In this document: positions 11,247 through 15,461 of the stretch, one piece after another | Numbering within the stretch: position 1 is the stretch's first letter | Layout of the letters: each line of letters starts with the position of its first letter | NCBI RefSeq assembly: GCF_900110485.1 | Contig: NZ_FODY01000011.1 | Location: 1-64,000, forward strand | Direction: 5' to 3' | From: Propionispora vibrioides | GTDB taxonomy: Bacteria > Bacillota > Negativicutes > Propionisporales > Propionisporaceae | DNA: 64,000 nt | Made by a program: the position numbers and the translations under genes | Notes under the pieces: model-generated | What the model saw: only the letters and a program-made list of their open reading frames with translations | What the model was told of the DNA's origin: nothing | Database searches by the model: none

Positions 11247-11323
11247 TGGCGACCCCGGCAGGATTCGAACCTGCGACCTTTTGATTCGTAGTCAAACGCT
11301 CTATCCAGCTGAGCTACGGAGTC
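11247..11323 (-). tRNA. tRNA-Arg (anticodon ACG)
   Basis: A complete cloverleaf on the minus strand, 77 nt including an encoded CCA. Acceptor GACTCCG pairs with CGGGGTC, the anticodon loop is CTACGAA (ACG), and the T loop is GGTTCGAATCC. The ACG anticodon is read as inosine after TadA editing and decodes CGN codons. Confidence 0.97.
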
Positions 11324-11433
11324 ATTTCGCCAGCCATTTACCGGCCAACGAAAATTATTATATCACTTTTTAATAAGCATTGTCAACAAATATTATTATA
11401 TTTCCTTAAAATACCTCAGCGACCCTGTTCAAT

Positions 11434-11666
11434 TTATTCACAGGCCGTGGATATCTTGGGTGGAAATGTCCTGTTTATTGTAGATAACTGCTGTGCATAA
11501 TGGGAGGGTAAAACAGTTATTCAGCAAGTTGTCCACCTTTTGCACAGGGTTATCCACAGAAACAATGGAGATTTTATGCGAAAATCAGGTTTTTTCCACA
11601 ATTGTCATAGAAGCGTTTTCCACTTATCCACATTTACATAGAATTTGTGAATAAAAATGTGGATAA
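11434..11666. promoter_or_regulatory. Cluster of six DnaA boxes next to purL
   Basis: Six exact matches to TTATNCACA: 11434-11442 (+), 11492-11500 (-), 11550-11558 (+), 11624-11632 (+), 11646-11654 (-), 11658-11666 (-). Three are the strong TTATCCACA form. Starts of the first three are 58 bp apart. An AT-rich tract (about 11350-11415) adjoins. No dnaA, dnaN or rpmH gene is in the window, so this is more likely a DnaA-binding or titration site than oriC itself, but it has the make-up of an origin-like region. Confidence 0.75.
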
Positions 11667-11681
11667 GTTGTTATTGCCCTG

Positions 11682-14600
11682 TTAGTTAAAATAATTGATA
11701 CCGGCCTGGAAGATTTGTTGGTCTTTATTGCCGGGGACATTTTTGGCAATTTGCTCGCCAGTCCGTTCGGAATGACCCATTTTACCAAGCACTCTGCCGT
11801 CCGGGCTGGTAATTCCTTCAACAGCTTCAACCGAACCGTTCGGGTTGTGGATAATATCCATGGACGGCTTACCGTCAAAATCCACATACTGAGTGGCAAT
11901 CTGGCCTTGCTGAATCAGTTGACTGATCATTGCCGGGCTGGCGACAAACCGGCCTTCACCATGCGACATGGCCACAGTGTGGATATCGCCCACTTCCACC
12001 CGGCTGAACCAGGGCGACAGGTTGGAGACCACTTTGGTCTTCGACAGGCAGGATATATGGCGCCCCAGCGTGTTATAGGTCAATGTCGGGCAGTCCGGAG
12101 TAAGGTCACGAATTTCGCCGTAGGGGACCAGTCCCAATTTGATGAGTGCCTGAAAACCGTTGCAGATGCCCAGCATCAGGCCGTCCCGCTTTTGCAGTAG
12201 TTCGGTTACCGCTTCCTTGACGCGGGGATTTCTAAACAACGTAGCGATAAACTTGCCGGAGCCGTCCGGTTCGTCACCGGCGCTAAAGCCTCCCGGCAGC
12301 ATAACAATCTGCGACTGACGGATGGCAGCTACCGTGGCGGCAATAGCCTCTTCCACAGCGGCCGATGTCAGATTGCGGATAACGAGCGTCTGCGGCAGGC
12401 CGCCGGCTTGCGCAAAGGCCCGGGCCGAGTCGTATTCGCAGTTGGTGCCGGGGAATACGGGGATAAACACCCGCGGCTTAGCGATCCGTACAGCCGGTTT
12501 GCGGCTATTCCTTCCGGAAAAGGCAACGTTCTGGGGTTGTCCTGTTGCCATGCCGGCCTGGGTCGGGAAGATTCTTTCCAGAGGCTTTTCCCAGGCGGCC
12601 TGGGCATCGCGTAAAGCAATGTCCTGTCCGTTCACGGTAAGAACAGGGTTTGCCTGTGTATAACCCAGGCAGCGGAACGGTACTTCACCAAAGGCGGCCT
12701 TTAGCTCTACGCCGGGCGCCATTTCCAATAGAATGGAACCGTAATCGGAAGCAAACAGTTCCTCTGAGGTAAACGTACCGTCAAAGCAAACGCCAATCCT
12801 GTTACCAAAGGCCATTTTGCTGATGGCTGCCGCCACCCCGCCGTAACGTACGGTATGTGTTGCCAGGACTTTTTCCTGGCGGATAAGATCATGAATCTTG
12901 CTGTAATTAGTTTCCAGCGCAGCAAAGTCAGGCAGTTGCCGTTCGTCCCGCGGCAGGGAAACCAACACTACCGGATTGCCGGCAGCTTTAAATTCCTGGG
13001 AGACAATGTTCTGGGCCTTAGCCACATCCACGGCAAAAGCAACCAGGGTAGGCGGCACCTGCAGGTCCTTGAAGGTGCCCGACATGCTGTCCTTGCCGCC
13101 GATGGCCGGAATGCCCAGCCGCTTTTGGGCGTAATAGGCACCCAGCAGGGCGCTGAACGGCTTGCCCCATTTGGCAGGGTCGTTGCCGAGCTTCTCAAAA
13201 TACTCCTGCAGCGTCAGGCGGATAGCCCGGTAATCACCGCCCAGAGCAACCACCTTCGCCACCGCTTCGATGACGGCGTACAGCGCGCCATGGAAGGGGC
13301 TCCAACTGGAAAGCTGCGGGTTATAGCCATAAGTCATGAGGGTGGCCGTACTGGTTTCGCCGTCCAACACGGGAATTTTGGCCGCCATGCCTTCAGCCGG
13401 CGTAGCCTGATAGGTACCGCCAAAGGGCATCAGGACAGTGCCGGCACCGATGGTGCTGTCAAAGCGTTCAACCAGACCTTTTTGGCTGCAGACATTCAGA
13501 TCGGCCAGCATAGCCAACCAGGCCTGCCGCAAATCACCTTTTTGCGCAAGCACAGGCTGCGGCAATTGTTTGAAGTAGTCCGAGCCGCTATCCGGTGCGG
13601 CTACCTTCACCTGGGTATATTGGGTTACCCCATTGGTATTTAAGAAGTCCCGGCTGAGGTCAACAATGGTTTTGCCACGCCAGGCCATTTGCAGGCGGTG
13701 TTTGTCGGTAACAATGGCTACCACGCTGGCTTCCAAATTCTCTGCGTCAGCATACTGGCAGAAGGTGTCTACCTGTTCGGCTGCCACGACCACGGCCATC
13801 CGTTCCTGTGACTCGGAAATAGCCAGTTCGGTGCCGTCCAATCCTTCGTATTTCTTGGGAACAGCGTCGAGATTGACGGCAAGGCCGTCGGCCAGCTCGC
13901 CGATAGCCACCGAAACACCGCCGGCGCCAAAGTCGTTGCAGCGTTTGATCAACGTGCTGACTTCGGGGTTTCTAAACAGTCGTTGCAGTTTTCGTTCAGT
14001 CGGGGCATTCCCCTTTTGCACTTCGGCGCCGCAACTGGCCAGCGATTCCTCGGTGTGCTCCTTGGAGGAACCGGTGGCGCCGCCGCAGCCGTCCCGGCCG
14101 GTCCGGCCGCCCAGCAGGATAATGACATCGCCGGGCTGCGGCTGTTCCCGGACGACGTTGCGTTTCGGCGCGGCCGCAATGACGGCGCCAATTTCCATCC
14201 GTTTGGCAATAAAGCCTTCGTCGTAGACTTCCGCTACCTGGCCGGTTGCCAGGCCGATCTGATTACCATAGGAGCTATAGCCGGCCGCCGCGCCAAGGGT
14301 AATCTTGCGCTGCGGCAGTTTGCCCGGCAGCGTGTCGGCAATGCCGGAGCGGGGATCGCCGCTGCCGGTAACCCGCATGGCCTGGTACACATAGGAACGG
14401 CCCGACAGCGGATCACGAATAGCACCGCCCAAACAGGTAGCCGCGCCGCCAAAGGGTTCGATTTCCGTCGGATGGTTATGGGTTTCGTTTTTAAACATCA
14501 CCAGCCAGTCTTCTGTCCGGCCATCTACATCGACCGGTACGACAATACTGCAGGCGTTGATTTCGTCCGATTCGTCCAAATCGGTCAACTTGCCGCTCCG

Positions 14601-15461
14601 TTTCAGCTCGCGCATGCCCATCAGCGCGATATCCATCAGTGACATTGCCCGCGGGGCGTCACCGTAGACATCTTGCCGGGCGTGGCGGTATTCGGCAAAG
14701 GCGTCCGCCACCGGCTGACTGTAAGGGCCGTATTCCATTTCGACCTGTTCAATATTGGTCAAGAAGGTGGTATGGCGGCAATGATCGGACCAGTAGGTAT
14801 CAATGACTTTCAGTTCGGTAATGGTCGGGTCCCGGTGTTCGTTATCGCGGAAGTAGCTTTGGCAAAAAGTCAGATCAGCCAAGCTCATGGCCAGTCCCAT
14901 ATCGGCCATCATCGCCTTCAGCTCATCCTCCGTTTTAGCGATGAAGCCGGTCAGAACAGCCACATCGTCCGGTATGGTTGCAGGCACATCCAGACTGTCC
15001 GGTTTAGTAAGCTGCGCTTCCCGTGATTCAACCGGATTGATGCAATAGGCTTTGATGCGCGCCAACTCGTCCGGCGAAACAGCCTCCTGCAGAATGACCA
15101 CCTTGGCTGAAGCTACCGCCGGCCGCTCCTTCTGGGTAAGCATCTGAACACACTGCGCCGCCGAGTCAGCCCGCTGGTCGTACTGACCAGGTAAAAATTC
15201 CATGGCAAACAAACTGTCACCGGCTGTAGAGGGCAGTTCCTCATCGTATACATCATCTACCGTCGGTTCGGAGAAGATAGTATTGCGGGCCAGGATATAT
15301 TCTTGTTCGGTCAGGCCGGCCAAATCATAACGGTGGACCAGTCTGACCCCGGTCAGGCCGCCAATTCCCAGGTTTTCCTTCAAATCCTGATATAAACTCT
15401 GCGCTTCCACCGCAAAGGGTTTTCGCTTTTCCACATACATTCGTTTGACAGCTTGCGTCAT
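11682..15461 (-). CDS. purL: Phosphoribosylformylglycinamidine synthase, single-chain
   Basis: 1259 residues, the fourth step of purine synthesis: FGAR plus glutamine and ATP to FGAM. The long single-chain type (about 1250 aa, common in Clostridia and Negativicutes) is supported by the ATP-binding half with SDHCRHTTF, NETHNHPTEIEPFGGAATC and GGRTGRDGCGG, a second ADP-binding half with GGKDSM, and a C-terminal glutaminase from about 985 with FPGTNCEYDSA, catalytic Cys in GICNGFQ and His in MSHGEGRF. GGAGG precedes the ATG. It stands alone, without the other pur genes. No purine riboswitch or PurR box was seen upstream. Confidence 0.97.
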   Translation of the reverse strand: MTQAVKRMYVEKRKPFAVEAQSLYQDLKENLGIGGLTGVRLVHRYDLAGLTEQEYILARNTIFSEPTVDDVYDEELPSTAGDSLFAMEFLPGQYDQRADSAAQCVQMLTQKERPAVASAKVVILQEAVSPDELARIKAYCINPVESREAQLTKPDSLDVPATIPDDVAVLTGFIAKTEDELKAMMADMGLAMSLADLTFCQSYFRDNEHRDPTITELKVIDTYWSDHCRHTTFLTNIEQVEMEYGPYSQPVADAFAEYRHARQDVYGDAPRAMSLMDIALMGMRELKRSGKLTDLDESDEINACSIVVPVDVDGRTEDWLVMFKNETHNHPTEIEPFGGAATCLGGAIRDPLSGRSYVYQAMRVTGSGDPRSGIADTLPGKLPQRKITLGAAAGYSSYGNQIGLATGQVAEVYDEGFIAKRMEIGAVIAAAPKRNVVREQPQPGDVIILLGGRTGRDGCGGATGSSKEHTEESLASCGAEVQKGNAPTERKLQRLFRNPEVSTLIKRCNDFGAGGVSVAIGELADGLAVNLDAVPKKYEGLDGTELAISESQERMAVVVAAEQVDTFCQYADAENLEASVVAIVTDKHRLQMAWRGKTIVDLSRDFLNTNGVTQYTQVKVAAPDSGSDYFKQLPQPVLAQKGDLRQAWLAMLADLNVCSQKGLVERFDSTIGAGTVLMPFGGTYQATPAEGMAAKIPVLDGETSTATLMTYGYNPQLSSWSPFHGALYAVIEAVAKVVALGGDYRAIRLTLQEYFEKLGNDPAKWGKPFSALLGAYYAQKRLGIPAIGGKDSMSGTFKDLQVPPTLVAFAVDVAKAQNIVSQEFKAAGNPVVLVSLPRDERQLPDFAALETNYSKIHDLIRQEKVLATHTVRYGGVAAAISKMAFGNRIGVCFDGTFTSEELFASDYGSILLEMAPGVELKAAFGEVPFRCLGYTQANPVLTVNGQDIALRDAQAAWEKPLERIFPTQAGMATGQPQNVAFSGRNSRKPAVRIAKPRVFIPVFPGTNCEYDSARAFAQAGGLPQTLVIRNLTSAAVEEAIAATVAAIRQSQIVMLPGGFSAGDEPDGSGKFIATLFRNPRVKEAVTELLQKRDGLMLGICNGFQALIKLGLVPYGEIRDLTPDCPTLTYNTLGRHISCLSKTKVVSNLSPWFSRVEVGDIHTVAMSHGEGRFVASPAMISQLIQQGQIATQYVDFDGKPSMDIIHNPNGSVEAVEGITSPDGRVLGKMGHSERTGEQIAKNVPGNKDQQIFQAGINYFN

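Follow-up and report, generated by a model that had tools for sequence, protein, structure and literature searches.

A conserved DnaA-box cluster near the chromosome origin of Negativicutes, a candidate control element for replication initiation

The window analyzed here is a 64,000-nucleotide stretch of the draft genome of Propionispora vibrioides (RefSeq assembly GCF_900110485.1, contig NZ_FODY01000011.1, positions 1 to 64,000 of the forward strand; contig C11 below). A cluster of DnaA boxes lies between the 3′ end of purL and a tRNA-Arg(ACG) gene that is transcribed away from it. The features of this interval are given below; genomes, contigs, loci and families carry our own G, C, L and f numbers throughout.

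11524..11668, no strand: conserved element block (core boxes I, II and III, box IV and the weak boxes between), delimited by alignment to G003
11624..11632, + strand: DnaA box I, TTATCCACA, opposed to boxes II and III; the start-to-start distance of 34 bp to box III defines the fixed core
11646..11654, − strand: DnaA box II, TTATTCACA, 13 bp from box I
11658..11666, − strand: DnaA box III, TTATCCACA, 3 bp from box II
11550..11558, + strand: DnaA box IV, TTATCCACA, 74 bp from box I; kept in 3/3 Propionispora
11592..11600, + strand: weak box TTTTCCACA, 32 bp from box I; at 31-32 bp in G001, G002, G003, G016 and G031
11616..11624, + strand: weak box TTTTCCACT, its last base shared with box I; conserved in the three-species alignment
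11538..11546, + strand: weak box TTTTGCACA, adjoining box IV; all three Propionispora have it 85-86 bp from box I
11529..11537, + strand: very weak box TTGTCCACC (two mismatches), from sequence scan and alignment
11492..11500, − strand: box TTATGCACA, in the two closest species only (G000 and G002); absent from G003
11434..11442, + strand: box TTATTCACA, in the two closest species only (G000 and G002); the G003 region holds a one-mismatch relative
11357..11386, − strand: tRNA-Arg promoter, TTGACA-N18-TATAAT with TG before the −10 (12/12 match)
11247..11323, − strand: tRNA-Arg(ACG), called by ARAGORN; transcription directed away from the element
11682..15461, − strand: purL (FGAM synthase; NCBIfam TIGR01857, 1862 bits), its 3′ end abutting the element and outside it

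The original prediction of six exact TTATNCACA matches was borne out, at 11434(+), 11492(−), 11550(+), 11624(+), 11646(−) and 11658(−), with the TTATCCACA form in three of them (11550, 11624 and 11658). The accompanying chance figure of about 0.01 match per 233 bp is also correct, the genome-wide rate of 214 TTATNCACA sites in 4.43 Mb giving an expectation of ∼0.011. Across the whole window, TTATNCACA occurs 12 times, compared with a mean of 1.73 and a largest value of 5 in 100 shuffles, and weaker boxes beyond the six exact ones were found at 11529, 11538, 11592 and 11616. The form TTATCCACA occurs 57 times in the draft genome (complete list), and at least three copies fall within 500 bp at only two places, the purL/tRNA-Arg cluster and C25:60662-60976 beside dnaA; this statement on clustering is complete for TTATCCACA alone, because 100 of the 214 TTATNCACA sites were listed. 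A further exact TTATCCACA at 11846-11854, inside the purL coding region, is present in G000 and absent from G002 and G003.

The cluster lies between purL and tRNA-Arg(ACG) in all three Propionispora genomes, so that the boxes are conserved in relatives, conservation in none having been named beforehand as the outcome that would tell against their significance. An order-level search gave the same four genomes as a family-level one. When the interval was aligned to Propionispora sp. 2/2-37 (G003), 124 of 144 aligned positions were identical in block 11524-11668 (86.1%), compared with 51 of 122 in 11401-11523, which holds the first two boxes (41.8%), 46 of 77 in the promoter zone (59.7%) and 90 of 123 at the adjoining 3′ end of purL (73.2%); for 13 columns beside the purL stop the alignment was too poor to allow a verdict. 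Boxes 3-6 (11550-11666) form the conserved unit, and these alignments indicate selection on block 11524-11668, not on boxes 1-2. The regular 58-bp steps first remarked on hold for the starts at 11434, 11492 and 11550, yet the second of these boxes has the opposite strand and the series is not conserved: boxes 1 and 2 are present in G002 and absent from Propionispora sp. 2/2-37, and the 58-bp period is thus incidental. The AT-rich tract described alongside the boxes does adjoin them, and was further identified as the tRNA-Arg promoter, a 12/12 sigma-70 match.

The core has the layout box I(+), 13 bp, box II(−), 3 bp, box III(−), and the distance to box IV, 53-79 bp, varies in approximately helical steps. 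When the fixed 43-bp core was searched with at most two mismatches allowed, 100 of 380 Negativicutes genomes (47 of 102 genera) matched, and the reversed-pattern control gave no match. Most positive genomes carry one or two copies, and many families have the core in nearly every genome tested. Among the 380 genomes it was either absent or diverged beyond detection in f4, f25, f28, f35 and most of f15; with several families lacking a detectable element, it is not essential to the class. The III-to-I distance of 34 bp is invariant by construction in this search, whereas an open-gap search (box I, then 4-30 bp to a first inverted box and 0-24 bp to a second) is independent with respect to the gaps. 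It gave matches in 82 of the 380 genomes (reversed-pattern control, 0), and among 38 parsed rows, hand-picked to illustrate the spacer classes, 21 sites in 20 genomes had gaps of precisely 13 and 3 bp.

Some relatives have I-II gaps of 4, 12 or 24 bp. The 24-bp variant was seen ∼9.5 kb from dnaA in G120 (L230 4980-5033) and G084 (L231 5021-5074), and gaps of 4 and 12 bp in related f11 genomes. Gaps of 13 and 4 bp characterize the tRNA-Arg elements of G009 and G027 (L280 and L281), which are reversed relative to the tRNA when compared with other elements; the fixed-core scan found no core in either.

Fifty genomes were searched via named records, resulting in four matches: Propionispora, Propionispira, Megamonas and a MAG titled “Bacillota bacterium”, whose contig number and coordinates equal those of Negativicutes genome G068. 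The core was found in none of the 46 others searched, which by title are outside the Negativicutes. A blastn comparison with E. coli gave a single match of 26 bp, on a plasmid, with an E value of 0.4.

The position of box IV was assessed in the 28 genera with an exact fourth box 40-100 bp from box I; those with no exact fourth box in this range (e.g. G073, G242, G331, G014, G086, G053, G015 and most f11 genera) were left out. Distances to box I fell at 53-56, 63-67 or 74-79 bp, in steps of ∼11 bp, with a phasing statistic R of 0.69 at a period of 10.5 bp. The best R over periods of 9.5-12 was reached by none of 5000 random sets, and likewise when one value per family was used (21 families).

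In the window genome the element (C11) and dnaA (C25) are on separate contigs. dnaA is located at C25:62428, with a box cluster just upstream (C25:60662-60976), and GC skew on C25 is negative before dnaA and positive after it; on C11 the skew is negative throughout the 110 kb examined, and weakest near 10-15 kb and 100-105 kb. Since dnaA, the second box cluster and the skew switch are all on C25, the C11 cluster is off-origin. Element and dnaA share a contig in Propionispora sp. 2/2-37 (NZ_CYSP01000007.1), where they are 77 kb apart, and on other long contigs the distance is 158 kb (G022), 315 kb (G038), 348 kb (G126), 177 kb (G187) and 207 kb (G039). For 14 cores in 13 long-contig genomes, five of them from one family and the genomes therefore not independent, the main copy lies 2.0-11.4% of the contig from dnaA. 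It is mostly on the side upstream of dnaA, and on the other side in f1, f10 and one f11 genus. In all five genomes compared (G007, G008, G026, G029 and G082), the tRNA-Arg copy that bears the element is the copy nearest dnaA. Second, weaker cores, which are outside the distance list, were found in G008 (at 3,821,358, 932 kb from dnaA) and G007 (at 1,731,879, 339 kb). A second exact core in G019 (C1:210648; L216 5049-5091), at 210 kb, is on the opposite side of oriC from the tRNA-linked copy and has no tRNA nearby. A position near the origin is also expected from shared ancestry.

Judged from sequence comparisons, the cluster is on balance probably an autonomous candidate DnaA-binding control element near, not at, the chromosome origin. 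Its most likely role would be that of a restraining control site for replication initiation, acting through an ordered DnaA complex. DnaA would bind the boxes as one such complex, with II and III side by side and I facing them, and box IV is predicted to join on the same helix face. Early copying after initiation would double the element, so that DnaA is taken up or inactivated and the next initiation delayed, a delay modeled on datA and the B. subtilis DnaA-box clusters; the action on DnaA could be sequestration alone or a change of the bound nucleotide as well. A titration or reactivation site resembling datA or the B. subtilis clusters was among the roles originally proposed, and of these it fits best with a cluster that is off-origin, strongly conserved in relatives and origin-proximal. 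That the internal geometry is fixed while the distance to the promoter is loose argues for a DnaA complex that is autonomous, and against a regulator bound to the promoter.

In B. subtilis, six off-origin DnaA-box clusters are described, the joint loss of which leads to early initiation (Okumura et al. 2012, through PMC5295017 and PMC13220808). The same species is said to lack datA and DARS (PMC5295017 and PMC13220808, the latter a 2026 review), and the existence of regulators that switch the nucleotide state of DnaA there is stated to be unknown (PMC13220808). The Negativicutes element is similar in being an intergenic DnaA-box cluster outside oriC and origin-proximal, on distances taken from 13 other genomes, in a Firmicutes lineage, and a lowering of free DnaA would be a likely common effect. 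It differs in number, with six clusters there and usually one or two cores here, and in its link to tRNA-Arg; the fixed core geometry may be a further difference.

The E. coli datA locus, ∼10% of the chromosome from oriC, is downstream of glyVXY, requires IHF and promotes hydrolysis of DnaA-bound ATP, and its deletion causes extra initiations. Both datA and the present element are non-coding DnaA-box loci tied to tRNA genes, an operon in the case of datA; the Negativicutes element, however, is upstream of tRNA-Arg and has another box layout. datA has one IHF site between boxes, but the 87 bp that follow box I contained no IHF-like site in any of 26 elements, and the known mechanism of datA is thus not simply transferable. 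According to one report, datA lies near its tRNA operon and is controlled by read-through transcription from it (PMC10950094). In its origin-proximal position the element is closer to datA and the B. subtilis clusters than to DARS.

DARS sites stimulate ADP release from DnaA and lie mid-replichore, DARS2 needs IHF and Fis, and high-affinity consensus DnaA boxes bind ADP-DnaA too, as the consensus boxes of the element would. In a DARS-like element, boxes I and II, together with III, would assemble ADP-DnaA head-to-head; the ADP would be lost and DnaA released to rebind ATP, so that initiation is promoted. DARS1 and DARS2 of E. coli MG1655, as read from the bioD-uvrB and rppH-mutH gaps, both have boxes II and III facing opposite to box I, and their gaps measure 5 and 3 bp, in agreement with the common layout given in a review (PMC5742627). 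The boxes at 11624(+), 11646(−) and 11658(−) form a three-box core of the same topology, with I opposite II and III and the same 3 bp between II and III. The I-II gap, however, is 13 bp (4, 12 or 24 in some relatives) rather than 5, so that the facing boxes would be differently placed on the helix than in DARS. The element is also 2-11% from dnaA, whereas DARS1 and DARS2 are mid-replichore, and the IHF and Fis sites beside the DARS2 core contrast with the lack of any IHF-like site in the 87-bp stretch past box I (0 of 26 elements). We regard a DARS-like function as unlikely.

The autonomous control element that we favor has a close association with tRNA-Arg genes, which is also a point in favor of a second alternative, in which upstream DnaA tunes transcription of the arginine tRNA and couples translation capacity to replication. 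Among the first 20 contexts inspected, tRNA-Arg(ACG) stood beside the core and was transcribed away from it in 11, and tRNA-Arg(CCT) in one more. At least three exact boxes occurred within 600 bp upstream (or the contig's share of it) at 28 of 93 tRNA-Arg(ACG) loci from 52 genomes, in never more than one examined copy per genome (28 genomes); exactly one copy had the cluster in the 22 genomes with at least two examined loci, and 24 of the 52 genomes had no positive locus among the copies examined. Half of the 28 positive loci had entered the set because they already carried the module, and the remaining 14 were found among 79 loci retrieved irrespective of the module (80 with one that was not tRNA-Arg(ACG)), two of these 14 (G009 and G027) being already among the open-gap matches. 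Three boxes appeared in 0 of 5600 mononucleotide shuffles of the 28 positive regions, and one exact box was found in the 54,221 bp summed downstream of tRNA-Arg(ACG). tRNA-Arg(CCT) is downstream of the element in several other genomes. This strong link in many families is not needed by a purely autonomous element.

Regulation of the tRNA would accord with this upstream placement (tRNA-Arg(ACG) transcribed outward in 28 genomes, tRNA-Arg(CCT) in several others), with the perfect promoter that adjoins the element, and with the published account of datA as likewise tied to a tRNA operon (PMC10950094). The distance from core to tRNA, however, ranges from 159 to 509 bp (26 loci), a variation of 350 bp, the core and promoter do not overlap, and other copies of the same tRNA in a genome lack the element. 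Furthermore, while the element is usually beside tRNA-Arg, it is also present without it: in f23, none of 10 contexts of at most 3 kb had an adjoining tRNA, and the single f23 exception is the element of G082. A polyphosphate kinase gene adjoins two examined f23 elements as well as the tRNA-linked element of G022, which suggests common descent. We consider a regulatory region for tRNA-Arg to be quite improbable.

An unordered sink of high-affinity sites that titrates DnaA with no ordered complex would be compatible with the consensus boxes and the origin-proximal position, yet for such a sink fixed spacing, fixed orientation and helical phasing would be superfluous, and we give this explanation very little credence. 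A secondary or former replication origin is likewise highly improbable, despite the number of boxes packed into so short an interval. The true oriC of the window genome (C25:60662-60976) has the same boxes and the same topology, with one box opposed to two that stand 3 bp apart (L036 5945-5976), but there the I-II gap is 2 bp, compared with 13 in the element, and oriC is beside dnaA and near the skew switch. The C11 element has neither the GC-skew switch nor the neighboring dnaA that usually mark an origin, dnaA with its own cluster being on C25, and the replichore on which the element lies differs among genera; the location of dnaA and the GC skew both contradict the earlier suggestion of an origin-like element.

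In other genera the gene on the far side of the element encodes NiFe hydrogenase, an ABC transporter ATPase, a GGDEF protein, an amino-acid permease, lactate racemase, polyphosphate kinase or a cation ATPase; as this gene varies, and usually ends at the element where inspected, it is not the target. The initial suggestion of a regulatory site for purL can practically be dismissed, for although the element adjoins purL in 3/3 Propionispora, purL runs toward it and ends at 11682, which places the element at the 3′ end and not at the promoter, the far-side genes of other genera are different and unrelated, and a box cluster was found at none of 27 purL loci scanned in other genera (at most two scattered boxes).

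Based on a search of the open literature, with subscription papers beyond its reach, no published description of the element was found. As a compact element with exact geometry, usually present in one or two copies and spread over many families, it is amenable to deletion, box-wise mutation and in vitro tests. After datA, it would be the second, apparently independent, case in which a DnaA control site is linked to a tRNA gene, and it could be used to study why DnaA control sites stay near the origin. The restraint of DnaA is less understood in Gram-positive-type bacteria than in E. coli. More speculatively, and doubtful as matters stand, Negativicutes may possess a dedicated element that acts through an ordered complex, in the manner of DARS or datA, to alter the availability of DnaA or its nucleotide state; the phased box IV and the location upstream of a strong tRNA-Arg promoter would allow tRNA transcription, by way of supercoiling, to signal growth rate to the replication clock. 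If such a DARS- or datA-like reading were true, a class of element reported absent from B. subtilis (PMC13220808) would exist in Negativicutes.
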